Positions 9,727-33,996 of a stretch of 34,210 nt of DNA are shown here, piece after piece. The stretch is from Kiritimatiellia bacterium (GTDB taxonomy: Bacteria > Verrucomicrobiota > Kiritimatiellia > RFP12 > UBA1067): NCBI GenBank assembly GCA_017544725.1, contig JAFYDR010000338.1, forward strand, positions 1-34,210, in the 5' to 3' direction. The position numbers and the translations under genes are program-made. The notes under the pieces were generated by a model, which made no database searches, was not told the DNA's origin, and saw only the letters and a list, made by a program, of their open reading frames with translations. Position 1 is the stretch's first letter, and every line of letters starts with the position of its first letter.

Positions 9727-11103
9727 CTACTTACCGATCACCTTCTGGAAGTACGGTAGCATCGCCTTTGCCCAAATCTCGCTACCTTTGGGGCAGGGAT
9801 GCAGAAGGTCTGGCATGATGTCCCGCGTCAGCGTACCGTCCTCCTGGAGGAAATCCTTGTTGAAATCGACCCACAGAATTTTCTGTCCGTCGGCGTAGCC
9901 CTTGATAATCGCGTTCACCTTCTCATTTGCGACGCGCAACGGATCGTCCGGCTTCGCGCCACGCGGGAAGATCGGGTTCAGCAGAATCACGGCATCAGGC
10001 TGTTTCTCGCGAATGGCATCGAGAATCTTACGGATACCGAGCGCAACCTCTTCCGGCTTGTCGGAGCGGCAGTTGTTCGTGCCGATCCTCAGCGGAATGC
10101 ATTTGGCTTTGAAGCCTGCGAGCGCACCGTTCTGTACGCGCCACAACACGTGCTGCGTCCGTTCACCGGAATTGCCGAGGTTCAGGAAGGAGTATTGGCT
10201 GAAGTACTTTTGGATCACGGGAGCCTTGTCACGGCTGTCCCAGCCGTGAGTAATCGAGTCGCCGATCGCCACCACGTCGAAGGTACGGTCAGCCTTGGCG
10301 AGAACCTGCCGACGCTTTTCCCCCATGCGACCGAGCCAGCCCATTGCGGGTGCGGGCGTGGCGGCAACGGGATCCAGCTTCTCCGTCAGGCAACGGTTGA
10401 TCACAGGTATCACGCTCTTTGCCCAAATCTCGTATCCGACCGGACCGGGATGCAGACGATCCTTCATCATCTCGACAGTCAGAATACCGTCGGTAGTCAG
10501 CAGCTGGTCGTTGAAGTCGCACCAAATGATCGCACGGTCATCGGCGAACTTGCGGATTTCCTTGTTCACAATCTCGTTGCGGACACGGAAGCCGTCATCC
10601 GGTTTCTCCCCGCGCGGGAAAATCGGGTGGAGGATAATCCGAGCCTTCGGCGCCTTCTGGCGAATCTTGTCCAGCACCGCCTTGATTCCGATCACGGTGT
10701 CCATCGGCGGTTCGTCATCGACCTTGTGATGTCCCGTGTTGTTCGTGCCGATCATCAGGATGATCACCTCGGGCGAGTAACCGTCCAACTCGCCGTGATC
10801 CAAGCGCCACAGCACATGTTCCGTGCGGTCCGCGCTATACCCCAGATTCAAGGCATGGTACGGTTCGCCCGCAAAATACTTTTCCCACTGCGCCTTGCCG
10901 TTGCCTTCCCAGAAGTGCGTGATGGAGTCGCCGATGAACACGACCTTGGAGCCACCGGCCTTGATCAACTCGTGCTTCTGCGCGAACCGTTTCTGCCACC
11001 AGCTGTTCGCGTCAGCCGACTGCGGAACCGGTGTCACGGAATTTTGCGCGAAGGCACTCAGGCACAACGCGGAGACGAGAGAGAGAAATCCAACCTTTTT
11101 CAT
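9727..11103 (-). CDS. Exported protein with two tandem SGNH/GDSL hydrolase domains
   Basis: 458 residues with signal peptide 1-19 (cleavage after AFA). Two homologous domains: domain 1 (about 48-240) has S60 in FIGDSIT, GTNN at 119-122 and D215/H218 in DRLHP; domain 2 (about 270-458) has S283 in AIGDSIT, GTNN at 341-344 and D432/H435 in DLLHP. Both therefore keep the full Ser-Asn-Asp-His set of SGNH hydrolases and resemble the platelet-activating-factor acetylhydrolase-like branch. Shared phrases (LHPIFPRGEKPDD versus LNPIFPRGAKPDD) show a fairly recent internal duplication. It is likely a periplasmic esterase removing acetyl or other acyl groups from sugars; substrate unknown. It starts 30 bp after the tonB-like gene and is followed 16 bp later by pyrC, same operon. 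Confidence 0.92.
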   Translation of the reverse strand: MKKVGFLSLVSALCLSAFAQNSVTPVPQSADANSWWQKRFAQKHELIKAGGSKVVFIGDSITHFWEGNGKAQWEKYFAGEPYHALNLGYSADRTEHVLWRLDHGELDGYSPEVIILMIGTNNTGHHKVDDEPPMDTVIGIKAVLDKIRQKAPKARIILHPIFPRGEKPDDGFRVRNEIVNKEIRKFADDRAIIWCDFNDQLLTTDGILTVEMMKDRLHPGPVGYEIWAKSVIPVINRCLTEKLDPVAATPAPAMGWLGRMGEKRRQVLAKADRTFDVVAIGDSITHGWDSRDKAPVIQKYFSQYSFLNLGNSGERTQHVLWRVQNGALAGFKAKCIPLRIGTNNCRSDKPEEVALGIRKILDAIREKQPDAVILLNPIFPRGAKPDDPLRVANEKVNAIIKGYADGQKILWVDFNKDFLQEDGTLTRDIMPDLLHPCPKGSEIWAKAMLPYFQKVIGK

Positions 11104-13813: not shown

Positions 13814-13978
13814 CATACGAACCCGTGCGGAAAAATAAGGTGGACTCGAAAGATGGATTATTGATAGAATGCTGGGCGTGGTAAGGTTAGGCGTGACGCG
13901 GATGAGGTTGTAACCTTTTCCGTGTCCGTGTGTAAGCTAGTTGTTACGGAACAACAACCACTTTCATGGAGCAAACTA

Positions 13979-16042
13979 ATGGCACTGTCAATCAATTCGA
14001 TACGCAATTACACTGGTACAGAAAGCATCATGCTCGACCAGCAACGAACTGGTATTGAGGGATCCAAGCTCCAGCGGTTCAGGAGCTTCTTCAACATCGG
14101 CAACGCGCGCCAAAAGAATGCTGAGACGCTAACTGTCATCCACCATGCGATCTTAAACGACCCAAGCTTTGCGGCACCAGAGGTTCAGGCTGAGGCGGCA
14201 CGTCTCCTCTCCCAGGTGCGCACCGATCGCGCGATCGGCGCGACCCAAATCAAGAGTATCGTTCAGTCCCTTGACAACCTGATGCAGAATACACAAGCGT
14301 CTGTGGAAAATCGCGTGAAATTACGCCTAGCATCCACGATGCCGCCGTGGGCGGCAGGATACGAGGAGAAAGTCATCAAGGTTGCCTCCATCCATGTCCT
14401 CAAGGGGCTTTCAACCGCCGGAAGCTACACCGCGATCGACGTAGCCGGACGTACGCAGGAAGCGCTCGCGCGTATCCACGCCGCGCTTACGTACGCCGGA
14501 GACAATCCCGATCTGCGGGAAATCGTCCTCTCCACGCTTGACCGCACCATGATTGGCCTAGGTGCCACACTTGCCACTGATCAGAAGATACAACAACGTA
14601 TCGACACATTCCGTACCGATTTGGAACGCATCGATGCCCGTGCGCAGCGGAGTGCGAATCCCGCCGAAGTCAAGAAGCTCGGCGTAGCTTTCCTCATATC
14701 GCTCGGCAAGCCCGTGCACCCAGATGTGATCGACACCCTCGATACCTTCTCGCAAAGCCTCCCCACCAAGGCTCTCGCTACGCTTAAGCCGACATCCACA
14801 GCCAGCGAAATCATTCGAGCTATCCACCGTTTCGCCGAAACCATCCGCACCGTCATGATCCAGTATCCCGAAGGTGTCGAGCCGCTCAACGGTGGCGACG
14901 AAATCGCCCCCACGCAAGAGTTCGTAATCAAGCGCGCCATCGCCGAACTGCCTGCTGCCGCCCAAGACAACCTACTGCATCTTCTTGAGTCGGAGGTGGG
15001 AATTGATGCCTGCGCTTATATTTCGAGCCAGACCAGCAGCGGTAGAGCTATCGGCGACTTCAACGCGGTCTCCTACACCGTCGAATATCTCCAGCAGCGC
15101 GCTGGCAAGCCGACGGGCTATCCAGGTGGTTATGATGCGGTTGCGAAAGTCTATGACTACTCTCCGCTCGCGCGTTGCGCGTTCACTCCCGAACACGCCT
15201 TCTCCGGCAGTGCATCGGAACCCATCAAGACCGCGCTCTTGAGACCGCACCACTTCGGTCGTTTCAATTTCCCGGCGGCCGCGATGCATGACAAGATTGA
15301 CGCGGCAGCGAAGTCGATGGTCACCTGCACCTTCGCCGCCGAAATGAAGAAACTGGCAACAGGCGTGAACGAGGTCATCTTCGACAAGGACATCAAGCGT
15401 AATACTGTTGTCACCTTGCCAGACGGTACGCAAGTCTCCAATGACCCCGCAGTTGCTCGCGACCAGTTCGCACGTCTCGTCACCGGCAACGATCAGGCGA
15501 CATACGATACGCTTCTTCCCGCAGAGAAGGCTAAAGCGAATGCATTCATGGCACTCCTCTCGCAAGAGACGGAGAAGGCTGTGGAAAAGGGTATTCCAAC
15601 AGCCCTCTCCCGCACTGGCAGCACCGCAGCATTCAGCTGTGCGACGGACGCACGTACCGATGCGCCCCAGCCCGTACGATCCTTCGACATTTCCGGTTCG
15701 CCTCTCGAAGGTTTCACGATCCACTACCGGGGCGACTTCCCTACCCTGTTCATGATGTACGATGACGAAAACGGCGTGCAACAGCAGACGGAGATGGGAC
15801 AGAAGATTGTCTGCAAGTACGAGATGGAGATGCACATCTCTCAGGCGTCACTCAACCAAATGTCGCTGACGGACTGGGCAACGTATGACCCTACAGTAAG
15901 CGACGGGATCCTGAACGAACTTGATCATCCCAATCGCCTAGCCGACAGCTACAACGCGATTCCACCGAACTTCCGTCTGGATGTGGACGTCACCGCCGGA
16001 TTCATCATCCATGCGGATGCGGCCCCGAAAAGACGGCACTAG
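13979..16042 (+). CDS. Protein of unknown family, 687 residues
   Basis: The frame is open from a GTG at 13922, but the ATG at 13979 has a GGAG site 7 bases before it and is the better start (MALSINSIRNYTG). No signal peptide, no membrane helix, and no motif I recognise. The first half (to about 340) is helix-rich with regular Leu/Ala/Ile heptad-like spacing (for example QAEAARLLSQVR, QIKSIVQSLDNLM, IDTFRTDLERIDARAQ). The middle and C-terminal parts are more mixed, with a possible beta-rich segment near 580-625 (GFTIHYRGDFPTLFMMYDDENG). Codon use and GC content look like its neighbours. It is monocistronic, flanked by repeats. A secreted effector lacking an N-terminal Sec signal, or a large cytosolic scaffold, are both possible; there is no direct support for either. 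Confidence 0.85.
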   Translation: MALSINSIRNYTGTESIMLDQQRTGIEGSKLQRFRSFFNIGNARQKNAETLTVIHHAILNDPSFAAPEVQAEAARLLSQVRTDRAIGATQIKSIVQSLDNLMQNTQASVENRVKLRLASTMPPWAAGYEEKVIKVASIHVLKGLSTAGSYTAIDVAGRTQEALARIHAALTYAGDNPDLREIVLSTLDRTMIGLGATLATDQKIQQRIDTFRTDLERIDARAQRSANPAEVKKLGVAFLISLGKPVHPDVIDTLDTFSQSLPTKALATLKPTSTASEIIRAIHRFAETIRTVMIQYPEGVEPLNGGDEIAPTQEFVIKRAIAELPAAAQDNLLHLLESEVGIDACAYISSQTSSGRAIGDFNAVSYTVEYLQQRAGKPTGYPGGYDAVAKVYDYSPLARCAFTPEHAFSGSASEPIKTALLRPHHFGRFNFPAAAMHDKIDAAAKSMVTCTFAAEMKKLATGVNEVIFDKDIKRNTVVTLPDGTQVSNDPAVARDQFARLVTGNDQATYDTLLPAEKAKANAFMALLSQETEKAVEKGIPTALSRTGSTAAFSCATDARTDAPQPVRSFDISGSPLEGFTIHYRGDFPTLFMMYDDENGVQQQTEMGQKIVCKYEMEMHISQASLNQMSLTDWATYDPTVSDGILNELDHPNRLADSYNAIPPNFRLDVDVTAGFIIHADAAPKRRH

Positions 16043-18754: not shown

Positions 18755-20512
18755 TCAAAGTGTCGAAGGCAGATAATCTCCAAATTCCACCACACCGACG
18801 GTTTCCGCCCCGAGTTTCTGCACTTGGGCGCAGAGATCCTTGTCGTCGCTCACGAGTAGAACAACCAGTTCCGGCTCGTCCGTCCGGAAGAAACGAATCG
18901 TATCCACCAAGACACGATCCGCCCGATGTTCACCCAATCCACCTGAATAAAGGACGCGCAAATTGTCGCCGACTGTAGATTCCGCCGCGTCCGCTCCGTC
19001 AAAAACGATCCACGACCGCAGGGTGGGCGTCATGGAAATCAACTGCTCTACGTCGCGAATCAGAAGCCCTCTCCGCTGCGTGTTACTCATCGACTGACCG
19101 CGTTTCGGGTTGTACCGAACCGCGAGCGTCAACAGGACATTGTGTCCATCCAGCATCAGGATGGCGGGAATCTCGCCGCACAGCGCCTTTTCCAGCGTGG
19201 TCTTGCGGCGCGGAGCAGTCTCGGGAACGCCGATCGCGTGGAAGGCCGCCTTTCGTTTTTCGTACTCCCGACGTATCCGTTCCAGCGACTCCTTTCCGAC
19301 AAGCTGGAAGGATTCGAGCGAATCCGACAAACGACGCAACGATTCCCATTCGATTCCGTTTTCCTTCGCCGCATGAATGCGGTCGATGATGCGCTCCTCC
19401 AACAGCGGCGCATGCTCTCCCGGATAGAGGATTGTCGCGAGGCGTTCCTCCTCCTTCCGCAACTCCCCTTCGATCTCCTTCAGCGCCGGCGACTGACGGA
19501 TGGCGTTCGCAAGCGTGTCCTCCACCTCTTTCAGCTTCGCGGTCACCTCTTCCAACCGTTTCCGCAACGTCACGCGATTCCCCGCGTTACGGTCGATCTC
19601 CGCCTGTTTCGCCAACGCCGCATCGGTGCGCGCCAGCAAGTCGCAGACGCTTTCGTCGCGAACAGTCTGCTCCACCTCGCGCGCAGCGGAAAGCCAGCCG
19701 AAGAACTCCTGTGCCATCCTCCGATCCACATCGGCAAGTACGCGCTGTTCGCGGTGCACGATTTCCCGATGCAGTTCCACGCGATACGATTCCGCCTCTT
19801 CCCGTTTCGACTTCAATTCGGTCTCACGAAGAGCGGCGATCTCCTTCTGTTTCGCCAGCTCGATTTCCGTATCGCCGAGTTTTTTCCGGGTCTGCTCCGC
19901 CTGCGTTTCGACACCGCGCAACCTACGGTTCTCGTTCTGCAGTTCCTTGATCTTCAACTCCAGGCGTTCCCGCTGTTCCTGCCATTTCTCGACCGTCATG
20001 GGGGCGCCCCCCCCCTCCGCAGGGGCAGACGTGACACCCATCAGCTCCTGCAACTCACCGAAAACGGAACGGAGTTGATCGACCGCCTGTTTCGCGTCGC
20101 AGGGAGAGAATGAGGTGAGCGGATTCTGTAGCCACTGTTCCGCATTCTCGCGCACACCGCGTCGACCATCAAGCAGACAGGAAACGAGAAAGACGGGCGT
20201 TCCCAGCAAAGTGGCGAAGGCATGACGGAGATCAACCAGCGTGCTTTCCTCCAACCGCCCCGTCAGCGTACAGGCGCGCGACCGTTTGGCAATGGTCTGA
20301 CGCAACGAATCGGAGATAACGGCACCGCCGCAGACGATCTGTTCCAAGCGGGGAAGCAAGACCGACCGCTTCGCACCGGGACGGAATCCCCCCGTGCGGA
20401 AGGCGGGTTCGGTACGGATGGCGGCATCCAAATCCGCATCGGAAATCCGCTGCAGAATCCGCTTCAGTTCCTTCTGGCAATCGGGTGGCAGAGGTGTTAC
20501 GCAGAGAGACAT
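18755..20512 (-). CDS. Coiled-coil protein with C-terminal NYN (YacP/Rae1-like) nuclease domain
   Basis: 585 residues. Three parts: an N-terminal helical domain (1-160) of no recognised family; a long Glu/Arg/Lys/Gln-rich coiled coil (about 172-345, with a second shorter helical stretch to about 425); and a C-terminal NYN/PIN-like domain (about 448-585). The NYN part shows the acidic residues of the metal site: D455 in LMLDGHNVL, D505 in IVFDG, D532 in HRADRVLVD and D556-D557 in VSDDKDL. YacP/Rae1 relatives are ribosome-associated or free endoribonucleases of about 170 residues, so this protein carries more than 400 extra residues. The start overlaps the end of aroA by 16 bp with GGAGG 6 bases before the ATG. 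A run of eight G on the coding strand (20015-20008) codes for the Gly-rich hinge just before the coiled coil. An RNA-cleaving role is likely by family; its target is unknown. Confidence 0.85.
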   Translation of the reverse strand: MSLCVTPLPPDCQKELKRILQRISDADLDAAIRTEPAFRTGGFRPGAKRSVLLPRLEQIVCGGAVISDSLRQTIAKRSRACTLTGRLEESTLVDLRHAFATLLGTPVFLVSCLLDGRRGVRENAEQWLQNPLTSFSPCDAKQAVDQLRSVFGELQELMGVTSAPAEGGGAPMTVEKWQEQRERLELKIKELQNENRRLRGVETQAEQTRKKLGDTEIELAKQKEIAALRETELKSKREEAESYRVELHREIVHREQRVLADVDRRMAQEFFGWLSAAREVEQTVRDESVCDLLARTDAALAKQAEIDRNAGNRVTLRKRLEEVTAKLKEVEDTLANAIRQSPALKEIEGELRKEEERLATILYPGEHAPLLEERIIDRIHAAKENGIEWESLRRLSDSLESFQLVGKESLERIRREYEKRKAAFHAIGVPETAPRRKTTLEKALCGEIPAILMLDGHNVLLTLAVRYNPKRGQSMSNTQRRGLLIRDVEQLISMTPTLRSWIVFDGADAAESTVGDNLRVLYSGGLGEHRADRVLVDTIRFFRTDEPELVVLLVSDDKDLCAQVQKLGAETVGVVEFGDYLPSTL

Positions 20513-21807
20513 ACCTCACCTCCAATCTGTTGCAAATCGGTTAAAAATTCGGGGAAGGACTCGTTGAGGATTTCCGCATGACGGACAACGACGGGTTCCG
20601 GTGAAATCAACCCCAGCAGGGCGAGCGACATGGCAATCCGGTGATCGCCGTGTGCATCGACCTCACCGCCCCGACATGTTCCGCCGACGAGGTCAAAGCC
20701 GTCCTCAAACTCCTTCACCGTCACGCCAATGCGCTTCAGTTCCTCGCACAGAATCGCAATCCGATCGCTCTCCTTGTAACGCAACTCCTTCGCGCCACGC
20801 ACGCGAGTCACGCCGTTCGCGCCGCAAGCAAGCGCGGCGAAAACGGGGAATTCGTCGATCATGCGGACAACCAGATCGCCCGAAACTTCCGTTGCGGACA
20901 ACGGCGATGCGGTCAGGCGGATATCGCCCACCGGCTCGCCACAGACCTCGCGTTCGTTCTCGACCGAGAAGCTGCCGCCCATCGAACGCAATGCGTCCAG
21001 AAAACCCGTTCGCGTCGGATTCACGCCCACCGAGGGAATCCGGATGAAGGACCCCGGAACCAGAGCTGCCGCCGTCAGCAGAAAGGCGGCGGAGGAAATG
21101 TCGCCCGGCAGATCAATCCGCAACGGGTGGAGGGGCGCACGACTGCCCACGATCTGCACTCGGTTCCCAGCACAGGAAATGACCTGTGCACCCATCGAGC
21201 GCAACATCCGTTCCGTGTGGTCACGCGAAGGACCGGGTTCGTCAATGACGCTCTCCCCGTCCGCATAGAGCGCGGCAATTGTCAGGCACGACTTAACCTG
21301 TGCGCTCGCGACAGGTAACGTCGTATGGATCGGGCGTAACGGACACTCGCGCGAACGCGGCAGGAATCGGGCGGGAGCGCGTCCGTTATCGGACTCGATC
21401 CCCACGCCCATTTGGCGCAACGGCTGGAAGATGCGCTCCATCGGACGCGCACGAAGTCCCTCGCTGCCGTCTAGCGTACAGGCGAGACCGGAAGCTGCCA
21501 CCGCGCCCGCCAGCAGACGGTATGTCGTTGCAGAATTTCCGCAAAAGACGGGATTCTGGGGTTGCTGCCAACCGTCGAGTCCGTGACCGAAAACAGTCAG
21601 GTGCCGTCCGTTCAACTCGTACTGGACACCAAAGGCTGAAAGAGCCTGCAACATGGCACGGGTGACCCCCGCGTCGAGAAAATTGTCGATTTCGCTCACG
21701 CCATCCGCCAACGCCGCAAAGAGTGCGGCACGATGCGAGAGCGACTTGTCGCCGGGCAGGGAGACCTCCCCCGCCAGTTTCTGTTTCGTGTGCAGTTTCA
21801 GTTCCAT
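20497..21807 (-). CDS. aroA: 3-phosphoshikimate 1-carboxyvinyltransferase (EPSP synthase)
   Basis: 436 residues from the ATG at 21807 (GGGGAG just upstream). The frame extends to 21882, but that part lies inside rpoN. Motifs: LPGDKSLSHRA near the start (phosphate and PEP site lysine), GNSATTYRLL, RPMERIFQPLRQMG, QVKSCLTIAALYA, SRDHTERMLRSMG, GDISSAAF, a DEFPVFAALA segment with the catalytic Asp/Glu, KESDRI and DHRIAMSLALLGL. All active-site regions are present. It joins PEP to shikimate-3-phosphate in aromatic amino acid synthesis. It overlaps the rpoN stop by 10 bp and the NYN gene start by 16 bp, so it is co-translated in that operon. Confidence 0.95.
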   Translation of the reverse strand: MELKLHTKQKLAGEVSLPGDKSLSHRAALFAALADGVSEIDNFLDAGVTRAMLQALSAFGVQYELNGRHLTVFGHGLDGWQQPQNPVFCGNSATTYRLLAGAVAASGLACTLDGSEGLRARPMERIFQPLRQMGVGIESDNGRAPARFLPRSRECPLRPIHTTLPVASAQVKSCLTIAALYADGESVIDEPGPSRDHTERMLRSMGAQVISCAGNRVQIVGSRAPLHPLRIDLPGDISSAAFLLTAAALVPGSFIRIPSVGVNPTRTGFLDALRSMGGSFSVENEREVCGEPVGDIRLTASPLSATEVSGDLVVRMIDEFPVFAALACGANGVTRVRGAKELRYKESDRIAILCEELKRIGVTVKEFEDGFDLVGGTCRGGEVDAHGDHRIAMSLALLGLISPEPVVVRHAEILNESFPEFLTDLQQIGGEVCLSA

Positions 21808-23348
21808 CCCACTCCCCGGCGTTTCGAAGAGGACGGGATCTTGAGAATGTCGCGGTACTTGGCGACCGTGCGGCGAGCGCACGTGATCCCCTTCTCCTTC
21901 AACTTTTCCGCGATGTCCAAGTCGGACAGCGGATTGTCGTGGTCTTCCGCCCGGACTAGCGAGGCAACCATGTCCTGCACCGACTTGTTGGAGACCGTCC
22001 CGCCACTGGACGCCTTCAACCCAGTGCTGAAAAAGAACCGCATCAGGAACACGCCCCTTGGCGTACGCATGTATTTGTTCGCGACGGTACGGCTCACGGT
22101 CGTCTCGTGTACACCGACCTGCTTCGCGACATCCACCATCGTCATCGGACGAAGCCCCGAAACACCCTTCAACCAGAAGTCATTCTGCGTATCGACGATC
22201 GTCTGCGCGATCTTGCGGATCGTCTCCTGACGCTGCTCGATGCTTTGAATCAGGAACTGCGCTGCCCGCAGACGATCGCGGACATATCCCTTCGTCTCCG
22301 CGCTGGTCTCGGGGTTGGCAAGAAGCTTTCGATACTTCTCGCTAATATGAATCTGCGGAATCAGTTCGTTTTCCACGTGCGCCACGTACCGCCCGTTCGG
22401 TTCGCGCACCACGGTCACTTCCGGCTCCACGTAAACCGTCCCTGAGGACGAGAACTGGAAGCCGGGGCGCGGATCCAGCGAACGGATCAACTCCACGATC
22501 TTGTCCAGCTCCGTCCGCCCCACCTTCAGTTCGGAACAGAGCGCGAAAGTATCATGGCGCGCCAGCAACTCCAAGTGACTGTCAACCAACCGAATCGCGC
22601 AATCGCGCAAGGGCGACGGATCCCGTGCGCGGAGCTGGAGCAACAGGCACTCGCGTAACGTACGCGCACCTACGCCCGGCGGATCGAATTCCTGAATGAT
22701 CGAAAGGACGCGAAGAACCTCCTTCTCGCTCTTCTCGGTCACCATCTCGATGTCTGGAAGCGAACCTGTGAAATAACCGTCGTCATTGATGTTCTCAACC
22801 AGCATCAACGCCAGCTTGTAGTCCTCTTCGGACAACGAGAGGTAGGAAAGTTGGGAGAGAAGGTGTTCCTGAAGGGAGACAGGCTGCCGCAAGGAGTCAA
22901 AGAGATACTGGCGCTTCTCGTTCTGATCCTCCAGATCAACCCCGTTCTCCATCCCCTGCAAGGCGTAGTCGAGCATCTCGTCGTCCTGCCGCAACACCGT
23001 ATCCACATCGGGATCTAAATTCAACTCTTGGTTCTGGTTCTCGGCCTCTTCCAGACTCATCCCGTGCTGAAGCTCGTACGGGTCCTCGTGTCCGTCAATC
23101 TCCTGGTCGTAATTCTGCCCGTAATCGGAGAAAGACTGCTCGTCTTCGTGGTACCGATCATCCGACTCCCGCGTTTCCGCAGGATCCACCATTTCTTCCA
23201 GCAAGGGGTTCCGCGCCATCTCATTGTAAACAGACTGGCGCAACTCTAGAATCGGCTTCTGGAGCATCTCAAGCGACTGCCGCAACTGCGGGGCAATCGT
23301 CTGAATCTGACGCTGCTGTTGAGCTAAAGTAAAACCGGGCGCAGACAT
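21798..23348 (-). CDS. rpoN: RNA polymerase sigma-54 factor
   Basis: 516 residues. Region I (1-50) is Gln/Leu-rich (LAQQQRQIQTIAPQLRQSLEMLQ), binding activators. Region II (50-130) is strongly acidic and longer than usual. The core-binding domain holds DDGYFTG and FDPPGVGARTLRECLLLQL (221-239). The helix-turn-helix (406-426, VDVAKQVGVHETTVSRTVANKY) and the RpoN box ARRTVAKYR (491-499) contact the -12 and -24 elements. It directs transcription from promoters that need AAA+ activators; none is in the window. The start at 23348 has no strong ribosome site. It heads an operon with aroA, the NYN protein and rfbB, an unusual set of partners (the more common neighbours are lptB and hpf). Confidence 0.96.
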   Translation of the reverse strand: MSAPGFTLAQQQRQIQTIAPQLRQSLEMLQKPILELRQSVYNEMARNPLLEEMVDPAETRESDDRYHEDEQSFSDYGQNYDQEIDGHEDPYELQHGMSLEEAENQNQELNLDPDVDTVLRQDDEMLDYALQGMENGVDLEDQNEKRQYLFDSLRQPVSLQEHLLSQLSYLSLSEEDYKLALMLVENINDDGYFTGSLPDIEMVTEKSEKEVLRVLSIIQEFDPPGVGARTLRECLLLQLRARDPSPLRDCAIRLVDSHLELLARHDTFALCSELKVGRTELDKIVELIRSLDPRPGFQFSSSGTVYVEPEVTVVREPNGRYVAHVENELIPQIHISEKYRKLLANPETSAETKGYVRDRLRAAQFLIQSIEQRQETIRKIAQTIVDTQNDFWLKGVSGLRPMTMVDVAKQVGVHETTVSRTVANKYMRTPRGVFLMRFFFSTGLKASSGGTVSNKSVQDMVASLVRAEDHDNPLSDLDIAEKLKEKGITCARRTVAKYRDILKIPSSSKRRGVGWN

Positions 23349-27095: not shown

Positions 27096-28313
27096 CTACC
27101 TCACCACATGCACGATGCGGAAGCCGCGAGAGCCTTGACTGCGGTTGTCATAGTTCGCACCGCCGCGCCTTCCCAGGCGCATGTCGCCAGCGCTGTTATA
27201 GAAGCAACCGCCGCGCACGACCTGCTGCTTGCCGTTTTGCTGGGTGCAGACCTCTCCATAGAAGTTGGTGGCGAGACGCTTATCAGCCCATTTCCAGTCA
27301 AGGCACCACTCCCAAACGTTGCCCGCCATGTCGTAGAGTCCCCAGTCATTCGGACGTTTGCTGCCGACCACGGCAGTATGATTATTGCTATTGTCAGAGT
27401 ACACCGCCAGCTGAAGAAGATTGGTGGCTGCATACCACGTACCATCGTTACAACGGTCGCCGAAGTGGTTGGCGCGCGCGGCGTATCCCCATTGCGCCTC
27501 GCTCGGCAGATCAAAAAAGCCGGATTCCTTACCCACAGCATCGCATATCTTACCGAGCCAAGAATCGGAGGCTGGCATGTTCGGCCAATAGACGCCCGCC
27601 CCGCGCATGTCGATGTAACAGACATTCTCCGCAGGATGCAGATCACGGTCGGCGTCGGTATAGAGGGTATTTGGATAGGAGCCGGTTATCTTCTTCCACT
27701 GTCCCTGGGTCACTTCGTAGATGCCGACGTAGTAGTTGTTGGTCAGCATCACGTTATGCGCCGGATTTCCGTCATTGTCGGTATTGTCATACGTCGCGCT
27801 GCCCATAGTCCAAACGACACCGGCAGCATCGATGAGACGCAACACCATGTAATCGGTACGGTAGATGTCGTTGGTGACGGGACCGTAGGGCAGATCGTCG
27901 GCGGAGACGTGGTAGCTGATGCCGTTCGTGCCGGAGAGATCGACCAGCATGTAGAGCGGCGGACGGTCAAGCGACCAAGCCGTGACTTTCACCGTCACGG
28001 AGTTGTCGCGAATCCGCTGGTCCGGCCAGGACTTCTCCACGTCCCAGCGAATGGTCTTGAGGTTCTGCGCGTCCGGCTGGACGGTGCAGTTGACATCGCC
28101 GGAGAGGTAACGGATGTTGGTGCTACCGATAGAAGTGCCGTTGGTCAGCACGTCCATCGTGATGACAGCGGGTGCTCCCGTGAGCCGATACCGGACCGTG
28201 ACCTCGCGGCTGAGCGGAGTGATCTGCGAGAAGGTAGTCTCCGAAACCTGCGGCGTGGCGGCAAAGGCGAGCGCGGGCAGGATGGAAAGGAAGGCGAGAG
28301 AAATGCGTTTCAT
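27096..28313 (-). CDS. Exported Ig-like plus FGE-like (SUMF1 family) protein, paralogue 1
   Basis: 405 residues. Signal peptide 1-18 (cleavage near AFA). A beta-sandwich domain (about 22-115) ends with DRPPLYMLVDLSG, a block shared with paralogue 2. The FGE-like domain (about 165-405) has NNYYVGIYEVTQGQW, LPSEAQWGYAARA (269-281), GLYDMAGNVWEW (326-337) and VVRGGCFYN (365-373), ending GSRGFRIVHVV. In true formylglycine-generating enzyme two cysteines lie 3 and 8 residues after the GGS serine; here those positions are Asn373 and Met378, so copper-dependent sulfatase activation is unlikely. The C-type-lectin-like fold is then more likely used for ligand binding. AAAGGAG upstream of the ATG. Last gene of a three-gene operon. 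Confidence 0.88.
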   Translation of the reverse strand: MKRISLAFLSILPALAFAATPQVSETTFSQITPLSREVTVRYRLTGAPAVITMDVLTNGTSIGSTNIRYLSGDVNCTVQPDAQNLKTIRWDVEKSWPDQRIRDNSVTVKVTAWSLDRPPLYMLVDLSGTNGISYHVSADDLPYGPVTNDIYRTDYMVLRLIDAAGVVWTMGSATYDNTDNDGNPAHNVMLTNNYYVGIYEVTQGQWKKITGSYPNTLYTDADRDLHPAENVCYIDMRGAGVYWPNMPASDSWLGKICDAVGKESGFFDLPSEAQWGYAARANHFGDRCNDGTWYAATNLLQLAVYSDNSNNHTAVVGSKRPNDWGLYDMAGNVWEWCLDWKWADKRLATNFYGEVCTQQNGKQQVVRGGCFYNSAGDMRLGRRGGANYDNRSQGSRGFRIVHVVR

Positions 28314-28339
28314 AGCTGTGTTTCTCCTTTCAAAGTCGG

Positions 28340-29686
28340 TTATTCATTCGGCAGGGTGAGCGCCACGCGGAAACCGCGCGAACCGTTCCAGTTTGTATTG
28401 GGAGCAGCCGTACCACGGAATGCGGGACGGATGTCGCGGTTGCCGGTGTAGTAGCAACCTCCGCGAACGACGATGTGATTGCCGCCACTCAAGTCCGCCT
28501 CGGAAATGCCGGGTATCTCGCCGTGCGTATTAGCGGAGATGTCGGTTTTCCCGGGGTCGAGTACCCACTCCCAGACATTGCCGATGGTATCGTAGAGATC
28601 CCAGTCGTTCGGCTTATAGCTACCGACCACGGCGGTACCGCGGTTCACGCCATACCCCTCGGCGTTTTCCACCTTGTTCGTTTTATCTCCATCGATAACC
28701 TGGATTGTCGGCGTTCCGCTGCACCCACTGTTACCGTTATACCGGACGTATGTATTATAGGCATTACCGAGCAGCAGCATTCCGTTCCCCGTACGGTTCC
28801 CGTAATGCCCGGCACGCGCGGCGTATTCCCACTGCGCCTCGCTCGGCAAATCCAGCTTTACACCGGTAAAGGCGCGCGCCTTGCCGAGGAAAGAACCCGC
28901 GGCGGGATCGGCGGGCCAGTAGCAACCGCTACCGCGAATATCGTTGAACATAACGTTCTCCACGGGACGGTAGGTGCGCTCATCGGTGAACAGTCCCTTC
29001 CACCCCCTTGCAATGTTCCACCACTGTTGCTGCGTCACCTCGAAGACCCCAATGTAGTAGTTATTGGTCAGCGTCACCTCGTGCAGCTTTTCCCTTGGAA
29101 ACTGGTAAAGCCGATCGCTGGCGTTGTTGGGACTGGCTGGCGCGTTGGTCGCCGTCCCCATCTGCCAGGTGACGCCACGCGCATCAATGCGCCGCATCAC
29201 GAGGCGGTCGGCGCGATAGACGTCGGACGAGAGTCCGCCAAAGGGGAGGAACTCCGTATCAGTGTAGTATGTCACGTTCGACTTGGTGCAGAGATCGACC
29301 ACCATGTACAGCGGCGGACGGTCTTGAGGCAGGGCGGTAAGGCGGTAGGTCACCTCGCCCGCACCGGTCTGGTGTCCCGGCCAGTCGAGTCCGGGATACC
29401 AGCGGACGGTGCGGTTCTCGCCCGGCTGGACGAGGCGGTTGACGTCGCCGGAGACGCGTTGGATGTTGGCACCACCGATGGAGACGCCGTTGGTCAGCAC
29501 GTCGAAGAGGACGATGCCGGGCGCGTCGTCAAGCGTGTAGGTCAGAACGACGCTGGAGGGCGGACCGTCCAGCTCCTGCGTACCGGTGACGGTCAGGACG
29601 GGCGACACGGCGGCGAGGCAGAACGCGGGGAACGCCAGCACCAGCGCGGATGCCCGGAGATTCGAGAGAAACGGATACAGCTTCAT
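28340..29686 (-). CDS. Exported Ig-like plus FGE-like protein, paralogue 2
   Basis: 448 residues, GAAAGGAAA site before the ATG at 29686. Signal peptide about 1-25 (PAFCLAA). Ig-like region (about 30-120) with LTNGVSIGGANIQRVSGDVN, matching the same phrase in paralogue 1 (LTNGTSIGSTNIRYLSGDVN), then DRPPLYMVVDLC. FGE-like domain with NNYYIGVFEVTQQQW, LPSEAQWEYAARA (280-292), LYDTIGNVWEW (364-374) and VVRGGCYYTGNRDIRP (407-422). The FGE catalytic cysteine positions hold Thr414 and Ile419. C-terminus GSRGFRVALTLPNE. It begins 22 bp after paralogue 3 and is followed 26 bp later by paralogue 1. Confidence 0.88.
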   Translation of the reverse strand: MKLYPFLSNLRASALVLAFPAFCLAAVSPVLTVTGTQELDGPPSSVVLTYTLDDAPGIVLFDVLTNGVSIGGANIQRVSGDVNRLVQPGENRTVRWYPGLDWPGHQTGAGEVTYRLTALPQDRPPLYMVVDLCTKSNVTYYTDTEFLPFGGLSSDVYRADRLVMRRIDARGVTWQMGTATNAPASPNNASDRLYQFPREKLHEVTLTNNYYIGVFEVTQQQWWNIARGWKGLFTDERTYRPVENVMFNDIRGSGCYWPADPAAGSFLGKARAFTGVKLDLPSEAQWEYAARAGHYGNRTGNGMLLLGNAYNTYVRYNGNSGCSGTPTIQVIDGDKTNKVENAEGYGVNRGTAVVGSYKPNDWDLYDTIGNVWEWVLDPGKTDISANTHGEIPGISEADLSGGNHIVVRGGCYYTGNRDIRPAFRGTAAPNTNWNGSRGFRVALTLPNE

Positions 29687-29708
29687 AGTCAGGTTTCCTT
29701 TCTTCCGG

Positions 29709-31214
29709 TTACTTGATCATCAGGATCGAACCTTGCCACTTGATCGAAATCAGCGGTCCGCCGGGCGAGACCCCCTCTGCGGAAAGCAGCGTGTCGAGTG
29801 TCGTTTCGTCGGAAAGCATCGAGGAGGACGACGCCACGTCGAACAGCTCCGGATCGGTCGTGAACGAGGAAGCGGGCGTGAACGGACGCGCCTCGGTGTA
29901 GGGCGTCGCCAGCACCTCCTGGCCCGGCAACATCAGGCAGATGCGGAATCCGCACTTGCCGTTGGCGTTTTTGTCGTTGGCGGAATTTGTACCGCGCTGC
30001 GCGGGACGGCAACCGCCACCGGTCGTGTAGTAGCAGCCGCCGCGCACGATCATGCTGTTGTTGGCGTTACGGTTCGACGGCTCGACCACCTGCCCGTAGG
30101 CGTTACCGGTGATGTTGTTCTGGTTCACGTCCAACGTCCATTCCCAAACGTTACCCGCCATGTCGTAGAGTCCCCAGTCGTTCGGCTTCTTGCCCCCGAC
30201 GTTTGTTGCGGGTCCTACCATATTCCGCCACCAGGCCATTTGGTCGAGATTGGGATCTTGGTTTTTGCCGAGCGTGGAGGCGATCGGGGAACCGTCGCCC
30301 CAATACCCGCTGTAGTGTCCGGCACGTGCGGCGAACTCCCACTGCGACTCGCTCGGCAGATCGAAGTCGAAGCCGGTGTACGCACGGAGCTTCCCGAGGA
30401 ACGAATCGGCCAGTGGCGCGTCTGGCCAGTAGCAATGGTACCCGCGAATCTCATCGTGGGAGATGGATGCGATCGGCAGCGGGTCGCAGGCAATCCATCC
30501 AGGATCTGGACGGATGAAGATGTTCGTCCCGTCGATGAAAAGCCACTGGTATTTCGTCAACTCGAAAACACCCATGTAGTAGTCGTTCGTCATCGTGACG
30601 TAGTGGCTCGCTTCGCGCGAACTGTCCCGCGCCGGCTCGTCCGAAAGGGAACCCATCAGCCAACGGACATTCGCCGCGTTGATGCGGCGGAGCAACAGAT
30701 GGTGTTCGACGTAGAGTCCCCCATACGGACCGCTCACCGCGCAGCCACCGGGAAGGGCGTTGGACGAAGTGTAGTATCGGACCTCCTTGTTCTCCAGATC
30801 GTAGTCCATGTAGGCCGGAGGATCGTTCGTCTTCCACGCATTGACGATGAGACGGAGGTTGGAGAGGTCGCCCGGATCCGTTCCCAAGTCATCACGCGCC
30901 CACCACGTCGCCGTGTGGGTGGTACCGCCCGCCTCGATGATGCGGTTGACGTCACCCTCGACGCGACGCACGTAAAGCCCGCTCTCGCCGATCAAGGTGC
31001 CACCAAGCGAGGCGTCCAGCGTAACAACCGCCGGCTCATCGCCGTCCAGCGTGTACGTCACCGTCACGCTCCCGTCCCCGTTCGGGACGAACGACGCTGC
31101 CGTGACCGACGGGTCAACGGCGAAAACCTCAAAGCCTGTGAAGGCAAGCAGGGAGAGAATGAATACCCCCCCCTGCACCCCACGCCAAAGGGCGCATCTG
31201 GCAGGATTGCTCAT
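29709..31214 (-). CDS. Exported Ig-like plus FGE-like protein, paralogue 3, with extra C-terminal tail
   Basis: 501 residues, TAGGAG site 8 bases before the ATG at 31214. Signal peptide about 1-32 (VFILSLLAFTGFEVFA). Ig-like region (about 35-128), then FGE-like domain with NDYYMGVFELTKYQW, LPSESQWEFAARA (286-298), GLYDMAGNVWEW (348-359) and VRGGCYYTTGGGCRP (390-404). Position +3 from Cys394 is Thr397, but Cys402 aligns with the second FGE cysteine, so only one of the pair remains. After CGFRICLMLPG (421-431) comes a 70-residue Ser/Thr/Leu-rich tail ending QGSILMIK that the two paralogues lack. First gene of the operon, so the others may have arisen from it, or it may have gained the tail for attachment. 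Confidence 0.88.
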   Translation of the reverse strand: MSNPARCALWRGVQGGVFILSLLAFTGFEVFAVDPSVTAASFVPNGDGSVTVTYTLDGDEPAVVTLDASLGGTLIGESGLYVRRVEGDVNRIIEAGGTTHTATWWARDDLGTDPGDLSNLRLIVNAWKTNDPPAYMDYDLENKEVRYYTSSNALPGGCAVSGPYGGLYVEHHLLLRRINAANVRWLMGSLSDEPARDSSREASHYVTMTNDYYMGVFELTKYQWLFIDGTNIFIRPDPGWIACDPLPIASISHDEIRGYHCYWPDAPLADSFLGKLRAYTGFDFDLPSESQWEFAARAGHYSGYWGDGSPIASTLGKNQDPNLDQMAWWRNMVGPATNVGGKKPNDWGLYDMAGNVWEWTLDVNQNNITGNAYGQVVEPSNRNANNSMIVRGGCYYTTGGGCRPAQRGTNSANDKNANGKCGFRICLMLPGQEVLATPYTEARPFTPASSFTTDPELFDVASSSSMLSDETTLDTLLSAEGVSPGGPLISIKWQGSILMIK

Positions 31215-31650: not shown

Positions 31651-33996
31651 ATGGCTATCGAACTGTTATCTCCCGCTGGCGGGTTTGACGCGGCACTAGC
31701 CGCCTTCCAATACGGCGCAGACGCCGTTTATCTGGGTATGTCGAGGTTTTCTGCGCGCGCGGACGCGGACAACCTCACGACGGATCGTCTGCGCGTGCTC
31801 CTTGCCTACGCGCGAACATTCTCTCCCGCGAAAAAAATCTACGTCACATTCAACACGGTCGTGCAGGAGAACGAACTGTCCGAGGCGATGGATTCGCTGG
31901 CGGAACTGAACGAACTGCAACCGGACGGGTTGATCGTGCAGGACTTGGGTATTGCCGCCCTGATTCGGAAACATTTTCCGAAGCTGGCGTTACACGCAAG
32001 TACGCAACTCGCCGTCCATTCATTGGCTGGCGTCACCGCCCTTCGGCAACTTGGTTTTTCCCGCGTGGTGTTGGCGCGCGAGATGACCTTGTCGGAAATC
32101 CGCGAAATCTGCCAGCGCGGCGGCACGGAGATCGAAATCTTTGTCCACGGTGCCCTGTGCTACAGCATCAGCGGACTTTGCCTGTTTTCCTCGCACACGT
32201 TCGGGCGGAGCGGGAACCGGGGGCGTTGCGCCTACTGCTGCCGCCAGCCCTTCGACGGACGTTTCCCCTTCTCGATGAAAGACCTGTCGCTTGCACCGAT
32301 TTTGGACGAAGTAGCGGCGACAGGTGCCGCTTCGCTGAAGATCGAAGGTCGCATGAAGTCTCCGCTGTACGTGGCGTGTGTCACGGACTATTACCGAAAG
32401 AAGCTGGACCATCGGCTTTCGCCGGAGGAAGACGTGGCGATGGTACAGGATTTGCAAACGGTTTTCAGTCGCCCATGGACGAAACTCTATGCGGAAGGCT
32501 GCGAGGTGCCGCCATCCTCGGTTATCGACCCGATCGGCATGGGACATCGCGGTGCGCCCATTGGAGTCGCAGAACGTACACGGCGCAGTCTCCTGCGAGT
32601 CTCAACCAACCGAACGCTGGAAAAACACGACGGCATTCAGGTTGAGTTGCCGCAGGGTGGACGCCCCTACGGTTTCGCCATCCAAGAATTGCGTCGTGCG
32701 GGAAATCCACGCCCGACACTATCAGTCCCAGCGGGAGAGACAGCGGAAATCGCCCTACCCGATGACGCGCCAGCCATCCCCGTCGGATCACCCGTTTTCT
32801 GCTCCTCCTCGCAAGCTGTGAAACGGCGGTACGAGATCCGTTCCATACGCGAAACCGAACTTCCGCTCGGCACACCGCTCATCGTCGCGGTACACATCCA
32901 CCGCGACGGCGTGGAGGCAGTTGCCAGCACACAGAATGGGATGCGTGCGGAAGCGAGCTGCGAGGTGTCCGCATCCCCCGCTAAACAACCGGGGCGAACG
33001 CACGAAGCCGTACTCAAGGCATTTGAACGAATGGGAGGAAGCGGCTGGCGATTGGGAGAACTGGCGGTACATGACTCGGATGGACTGTACGTGCCGCCTT
33101 CCCGACTGAACGAACTGCGTCGCCAGCTCGTGGAACGGATGAACGAGGCCGACAACTGCCGGCGGGAAAGGGCGCACACCTGGTTTCAAGAATCGCTCGC
33201 GGTGGAACACGTCACGCGCATCGAAACGCCTATGCGGATTCTCAAATTCCGCCTCGACAGAAGACCGCCTGTGACGGAACGGTTAACCGCCGACGAAGTC
33301 GTGCTGATGATCGGTCACTACGATGCGGACGCGATCCGGGCGGAACTGGACAACTGGAAAAGCACGCTCGCGGACGGAACGGCTATCCGTCTCGCTTTGC
33401 CAGTCTGGACGCGGGACTCGGATGCGGAAAAACTGGAAGGAACCATTTCGCAACTGGTGAACGCGGGATGGCGCAGTTGGGAGGTTGCCGACCTATCGGG
33501 ATGCGCCAGACTACGAGAACGCGGCGTGGAGGACATTACGGGCGATTGGTCATGCTACGCATTCAACCACGTAGCGATGGAAGCGTGGAAAGACATGGGT
33601 ATCCGCCGACTGGTGCTTTCCGCAGAGAACGGACGCGAGAACTGGGACGCACTGTTGTCCCTTCCCTTCCCTACCGAACTTCTCGTCTATCAGCACACAC
33701 CGCTCTTTCTCGCTGTGACGAAACCGATGGTTCCTGCACTCGACGAAACAACGGCATGCAAGATCTCATCCCGCTCCGACCAGTTCTTTGTAGAACGCTT
33801 GGACGACCTTTGGGTGACGGTACGACGCGAACCGTACTGCATTATGGAACGAACAACGGAGCTGCCGACGGCGGCAGCCTGGCGTTACGATTTCTCGTGG
33901 ACACCGCAATCAGAACTCGTCCGAGCAATCGTTGCACTGGAAAAAGACCGCCTATCATCCAACAACGAAGCCAACTACGTGCGCGGTTTGCAGTAG
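31651..33996 (+). CDS. Peptidase U32 family protein (large, RlhA/YhbU-type)
   Basis: 781 residues. N-terminal U32 domain (about 1-290): LLSPAGGFDAALAAFQYGADAVYLG, the family signature EIFVHGALCYSISGLC (162-177), then GRSGNRGRCAYCCR (185-198) and SLKIEGRMKSPLYVA. C170, C177, C193 and C197 match the cysteines that hold the iron-sulfur cluster in U32 proteins. The C-terminal half (about 330-780) contains the region found in long collagenase-like members (DUF3656-like) and a further barrel-like part. Despite the name, characterised relatives (TrhP, RlhA, UbiU/V) are hydroxylation enzymes for tRNA, 23S rRNA or ubiquinone; the long two-part architecture points to the rRNA-type RlhA, but this is inference. 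Monocistronic, no ribosome site before the ATG. Confidence 0.93.
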   Translation: MAIELLSPAGGFDAALAAFQYGADAVYLGMSRFSARADADNLTTDRLRVLLAYARTFSPAKKIYVTFNTVVQENELSEAMDSLAELNELQPDGLIVQDLGIAALIRKHFPKLALHASTQLAVHSLAGVTALRQLGFSRVVLAREMTLSEIREICQRGGTEIEIFVHGALCYSISGLCLFSSHTFGRSGNRGRCAYCCRQPFDGRFPFSMKDLSLAPILDEVAATGAASLKIEGRMKSPLYVACVTDYYRKKLDHRLSPEEDVAMVQDLQTVFSRPWTKLYAEGCEVPPSSVIDPIGMGHRGAPIGVAERTRRSLLRVSTNRTLEKHDGIQVELPQGGRPYGFAIQELRRAGNPRPTLSVPAGETAEIALPDDAPAIPVGSPVFCSSSQAVKRRYEIRSIRETELPLGTPLIVAVHIHRDGVEAVASTQNGMRAEASCEVSASPAKQPGRTHEAVLKAFERMGGSGWRLGELAVHDSDGLYVPPSRLNELRRQLVERMNEADNCRRERAHTWFQESLAVEHVTRIETPMRILKFRLDRRPPVTERLTADEVVLMIGHYDADAIRAELDNWKSTLADGTAIRLALPVWTRDSDAEKLEGTISQLVNAGWRSWEVADLSGCARLRERGVEDITGDWSCYAFNHVAMEAWKDMGIRRLVLSAENGRENWDALLSLPFPTELLVYQHTPLFLAVTKPMVPALDETTACKISSRSDQFFVERLDDLWVTVRREPYCIMERTTELPTAAAWRYDFSWTPQSELVRAIVALEKDRLSSNNEANYVRGLQ

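Follow-up and report, generated by a model that had tools for sequence, protein, structure and literature searches.

A 585-residue YacP/Rae1-type NYN protein with a coiled-coil rod and an unrecognised head domain in Kiritimatiellae, most likely a ribosome-linked endoribonuclease

The stretch of DNA analysed here (the window, 34,210 nucleotides of a Kiritimatiellia bacterium) encodes a protein of 585 amino acids on the reverse strand at positions 18755..20512 (ATG at 20512, stop at 18755), which its fold and its acidic residues place in the NYN_YacP superfamily, yet which is distinct from Rae1 itself. From its homology and its gene neighbours it is most likely a ribosome-linked endoribonuclease, a phylum-old variant of NYN_YacP in which the nuclease is mounted on a rod behind an unrecognised head. 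The open reading frame is considered to be a real gene, as a sister genome (a goat-rumen Kiritimatiellae MAG, the nearest named record) encodes a protein that is 84% identical, with a dN/dS of 0.15 over the whole gene, and homologues were found in 56 of 60 related genomes, usually in single copy. Taken by part, dN/dS against the sister was 0.14 for residues 1–160, 0.11 for residues 174–285 and 0.11 for residues 445–585, indicating purifying selection on the head, rod and nuclease alike. It was approximately 1 in the short linker between head and rod (residues 161–173, positions 19994..20032, reverse strand), which is variable and modelled with low confidence (pLDDT below 50 over residues 163–173). 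The reading frame, coordinates, 585-residue length and overall architecture given in the original prediction, which had been made from the sequence alone, were all borne out.

The C-terminal ~140 residues form an NYN domain of the YacP/Rae1 type (residues 442–585 by the limits of alignment A3, positions 18758..19189, reverse strand), and the earlier assignment of this region is supported by Pfam, profile and fold matches. The Pfam family NYN_YacP (PF05991) was matched by 43 of 47 family members at E ≤ 0.1, the best at 8.2e-11, with the isolated domain of the window protein scoring 18.9 bits against a gathering cut-off of 24.6 bits. It was only by using the isolated domain and a family profile that NYN could be recovered. 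Searches of the full window protein against Pfam, NCBIfam and the PDB gave weak coiled-coil and chance matches only, no solved structure was matched in the PDB by the full protein as a single sequence, and a PF05991 scan of the window's own genome gave zero matches, which reflects the sensitivity limit of that scan. The best natural relative of the family profile in the PDB was Rae1/YacP of Bacillus subtilis (5mq8/5mq9, E 2.8e-5), the sole chain to score above it being a designed TIM-barrel repeat that matched over a short stretch only. Rae1 was also the top fold match of the full-length AlphaFold2 model, with a probability of 1.00.

It had also been claimed that the acids of the metal site are intact. 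This holds for D455 (codon at 19148..19150), D505 (18998..19000), D532 of the RAD motif (18917..18919) and D557 (18842..18844), all on the reverse strand, which are invariant in 39 full-length homologues and align with Rae1 D7, D53, D81 and D104, respectively (Rae1 residue numbers hand-counted from the profile alignment). It does not hold for D556, which varies among these homologues and is no conserved metal acid. Residues H457, N458, R481, S523, G524, R530 and A531 were likewise invariant in the 39 sequences.

Rae1 of B. subtilis has been described as an endoribonuclease of the ribosomal A-site acting on mRNA (PMC6613710), and the CRISPR-associated NYN protein of Bacteroides fragilis is a Mn-dependent RNase whose activity is abolished by altering the aspartate of its first motif (PMC11346440). 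By homology to such proteins, the 585-residue protein would be expected to possess RNase activity. The gene for the B. fragilis protein belongs to a type III CRISPR locus, whereas none was seen at the Kiritimatiellae gene. The likeness to Rae1 comprises the NYN fold, the four aligned acids and the placement of the gene beside that of an rRNA methyltransferase homologue. Rae1, however, is a stand-alone protein of ~170 residues, to which the window protein adds a head and a coiled coil, and the DGYN motif of Rae1 is replaced by DGHN in the Kiritimatiellae protein, which also has an SGG-x-GEHRAD motif.

The long coiled coil of the original prediction was recovered as a single continuous predicted helix (residues 174–285, positions 19658..19993, reverse strand), followed by more predicted helices over residues 286–362, with heptad periodicity and a hydrophobic period of 3.45–3.55. 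Dimerisation of the protein is predicted from this coiled coil. A second helical section (residues 286–436, positions 19205..19657, reverse strand) carries the motif Q-x4-DR-x2-GNR at 302–313 (Q302, D307-R308 and G311-N312-R313, hand-counted), which was found again, in part, in distant relatives. This section is missing from the proteins of two sister species of the window's genus, which are 406–409 residues long and lack approximately residues 273–434 (L137:3611-4831 and L138:504-1733), and from that of another genus of the window's family (430 residues).

The N-terminal head (residues 1–160, positions 20033..20512, reverse strand) had been described as an unrecognised domain whose structure should be predicted, and the resulting model is that of a confident helical domain (pLDDT 93.3, pTM 0.87) with conserved residues at GGFR (41–44), D115 and R117. 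The window's head domain gave zero family matches in Pfam, while the heads of three other family members gave isolated weak matches to unrelated families. Fold searches of the PDB and BFVD, which are weak for small helical domains, returned nothing convincing (best E 0.68 and 0.97, respectively), and the domain thus retains its unrecognised status. It is possible that the head represents a new protein fold. A HEAT-like reading of the sequence LLLDxRxEVR in the head was dropped, having no structural support. A membrane-linked enzyme had been raised as one option for this protein, and an N-terminal membrane segment was sought using hydropathy and the structure model, with none convincing. The most hydrophobic 19-residue stretch (mean 1.63, from residue 98) sits within the confidently folded head, which disfavours that option.

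To determine how widely the architecture is distributed, as the original prediction had proposed, relatives were sought beyond the genus. An NYN match was present in 108 of 289 sampled Verrucomicrobiota genomes, those outside the order being mostly short reading frames, with long forms bearing the same head occurring outside the order in genomes G089, G159 and G299. A set of long NYN proteins of ~600 residues from other Verrucomicrobiota families (set A6) was found to be collinear with the family of the Kiritimatiellae across 556 columns, which take in the head, rod and NYN domain (full-length profile E 8e-38), and the heads of the two groups matched when compared alone (E 1.9e-9). The A6 proteins differ from the Kiritimatiellae family in having a DGYN-type motif and other gene neighbours, and share only 23–26% identity with the protein that comes first in the set. 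The recurrence of the same layout in such distant Verrucomicrobiota indicates that the head-rod-NYN architecture is old within the phylum. A similar layout was also found in an actinobacterial protein of Nonomuraea gerenzanensis (L063, 440 residues), in which an N-terminal region is followed by a long middle matching coiled-coil families and a C-terminal NYN_YacP domain (2.5e-17). Its rod is shorter than the Kiritimatiellae rod, and similarity between its N-terminus and the Kiritimatiellae head was undetected in a single-sequence comparison of low power. The general plan of an NYN domain on a rod therefore exists outside the Verrucomicrobiota.

Several genera of the window's GTDB-style family have short forms only, of ~170–200 residues and lacking the head, which by eye start with a short heptad-like stretch. 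As these genera manage without it, the head is inessential to the function shared by the long and short forms, and the occurrence of head-bearing and short-form-only genera in one order amounts to a natural experiment on the role of the added head and rod. Gene splitting was rejected as the origin of the short forms, since a search of the genomes with short NYN proteins turned up no gene for the head on its own. In a tree of NYN domains, long forms grouped largely by host family, with the short forms set apart. This tree was built on 148 columns, too few to decide between loss of the head and an older short form, and its entries include two fragments at contig edges (L021 and L037) and one reading frame that extends too far (L105). 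One genome (G038) has tandem full-length head-rod-NYN genes with an 8-base overlap (L034:4309-7831), which suggests a duplication inside one genus.

In the window, the gene directly upstream is aroA (EPSP synthase, 20497..21882, reverse strand), which overlaps the NYN gene by 16 bases, and upstream of this lies rpoN (sigma-54, 21798..23348, reverse strand). The operon with sigma-54 that had been predicted is real at this locus but peculiar to the genus: the order rpoN-aroA-NYN is limited to the four genomes of the window's genus, although one genome of family f6 likewise has an aroA-like gene upstream. Being genus-specific, the sigma-54 link was rejected as a clue to function. All-against-all clustering of the neighbouring reading frames was also undertaken, from which clusters 1, 2 and 4 were set aside as mostly antisense shadow ORFs. 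In two other Verrucomicrobiota genomes (L099:6037-8814 and L101:4871-7474), a gene for a fusion of a protein kinase with an FGE-sulfatase domain occurs directly downstream of the long NYN gene.

A gene for an RsmC/RlmG-like methyltransferase is next downstream of the NYN gene, on the same strand and within 150 bp, sometimes overlapping it, in 17 of 36 genomes of family f1. These 17 genomes represent 10 genera and include 10 long and 7 short NYN forms; an 18th has one gene between the two. The methyltransferase is non-adjoining in about half of the family, and in the window's own genus it is encoded elsewhere in the genome (G000 C352 in that of the window). It matches Pfam MTS (5e-30) and the RsmC-type structure 2zul (1.7e-12) and scores under the NCBIfam equivalog cut-offs for RsmC and RlmG, so that its putative rRNA substrate is taken from its family. 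In two genomes of family f4, the NYN gene is instead located 3–10 bp behind obg. Obg is a GTPase that binds the 50S subunit. These independent pairings lend support to a ribosome-linked role, which was one of the options originally put forward. In B. subtilis, rae1 lies next to yacO, the gene of a 23S rRNA methyltransferase homologue. The two are co-transcribed and part of one genetic pathway, and loss of yacO, rae1 or both suppresses the swarming defect of efp non-additively (PMC6613710). Bacillus YacO is SpoU-type, unlike the RsmC/RlmG-like neighbour in Kiritimatiellae. That nucleases of the Rae1 type are repeatedly paired with rRNA methyltransferases, and with unrelated families of these in Bacillus and in Kiritimatiellae, suggests a functional link that is testable.

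On balance, we think it probable that the protein is a YacP/Rae1-type endoribonuclease that depends on metal and has a housekeeping role, paired through its rod and docked by its head. The C-terminal NYN domain would cut RNA using D455, D505, D532 and D557, and the coiled coil would pair at least two copies while keeping the nuclease at a distance from the head. Docking would be the task of the head, with the ribosome or a subunit under assembly as the likeliest partner, and would make cleavage of mRNA or rRNA depend on the state of the ribosome. Docking on the ribosome is proposed from the gene neighbours and the analogy to Rae1. A more elaborate version, in which the head is a new fold that recognises ribosomes in one particular state and the rod determines how far the paired Rae1-type nuclease can reach, the whole being a dedicated ribosome-surveillance RNase of Verrucomicrobiota that acts together with an adjacent rRNA methyltransferase, is speculative and rather unlikely.

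It is rather unlikely that the protein is a general RNA-decay endonuclease acting off ribosomes, with the coiled coil and head gathering decay partners or self-assembling. Such a plan would resemble that of RNase Y, an endoribonuclease that is anchored in the membrane, carries a long coiled coil and has a catalytic domain unrelated to NYN, and it would fit both the union of a nuclease, long coiled coil and helical head in one protein and the lack of similarity of the head to a known ribosome-binding domain. However, genes for RNase Y and RNase E/G are both present in the window's genome, the neighbouring methyltransferase and Obg genes speak for a link to ribosomes, and none of the protein's segments is a convincing membrane span. 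The idea that the NYN protein replaces RNase Y or RNase E was rejected, as both enzymes are present, and their presence indicates that the NYN protein is an extra, specialised nuclease and not the main one of RNA decay. The same RsmC/RlmG-like methyltransferase and Obg neighbours would also suit a nuclease of rRNA processing or ribosome quality control that acts with them on precursor rRNA or defective subunits and not on mRNA. This is distinctly unlikely, given that Rae1, described as a cutter of mRNA at the A-site (PMC6613710), is the closest characterised relative, although gene neighbourhood cannot tell mRNA from rRNA substrates.

A defence protein was among the options suggested earlier, and defence systems commonly contain PIN-like nucleases mounted on sensor domains. 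It is nonetheless highly improbable that the protein is an RNase of defence or abortive infection that phage or stress would trigger, as it is near-universal among the relatives, its NYN tree largely tracks host families and its neighbours are housekeeping genes. In addition, a PADLOC scan gave no defence-nuclease match, with only weak coiled-coil matches to JetC, and a single-protein search of viral contigs found no relative.

A number of other genes in the window were also recorded. Three similar secreted-looking proteins are encoded in a row at 27096-31214, with an FGE-sulfatase domain in the first (27096-28313), the second and third being similar by eye. The reading frame at 13922-16042 (706 residues) had zero Pfam matches, and a single protein encoded at 9727-11103 contains a tandem pair of GDSL lipase/acylhydrolase domains. 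A Peptidase U32/DUF3656 protein is encoded at 31651-33996; U32 proteins include rRNA-modification factors.
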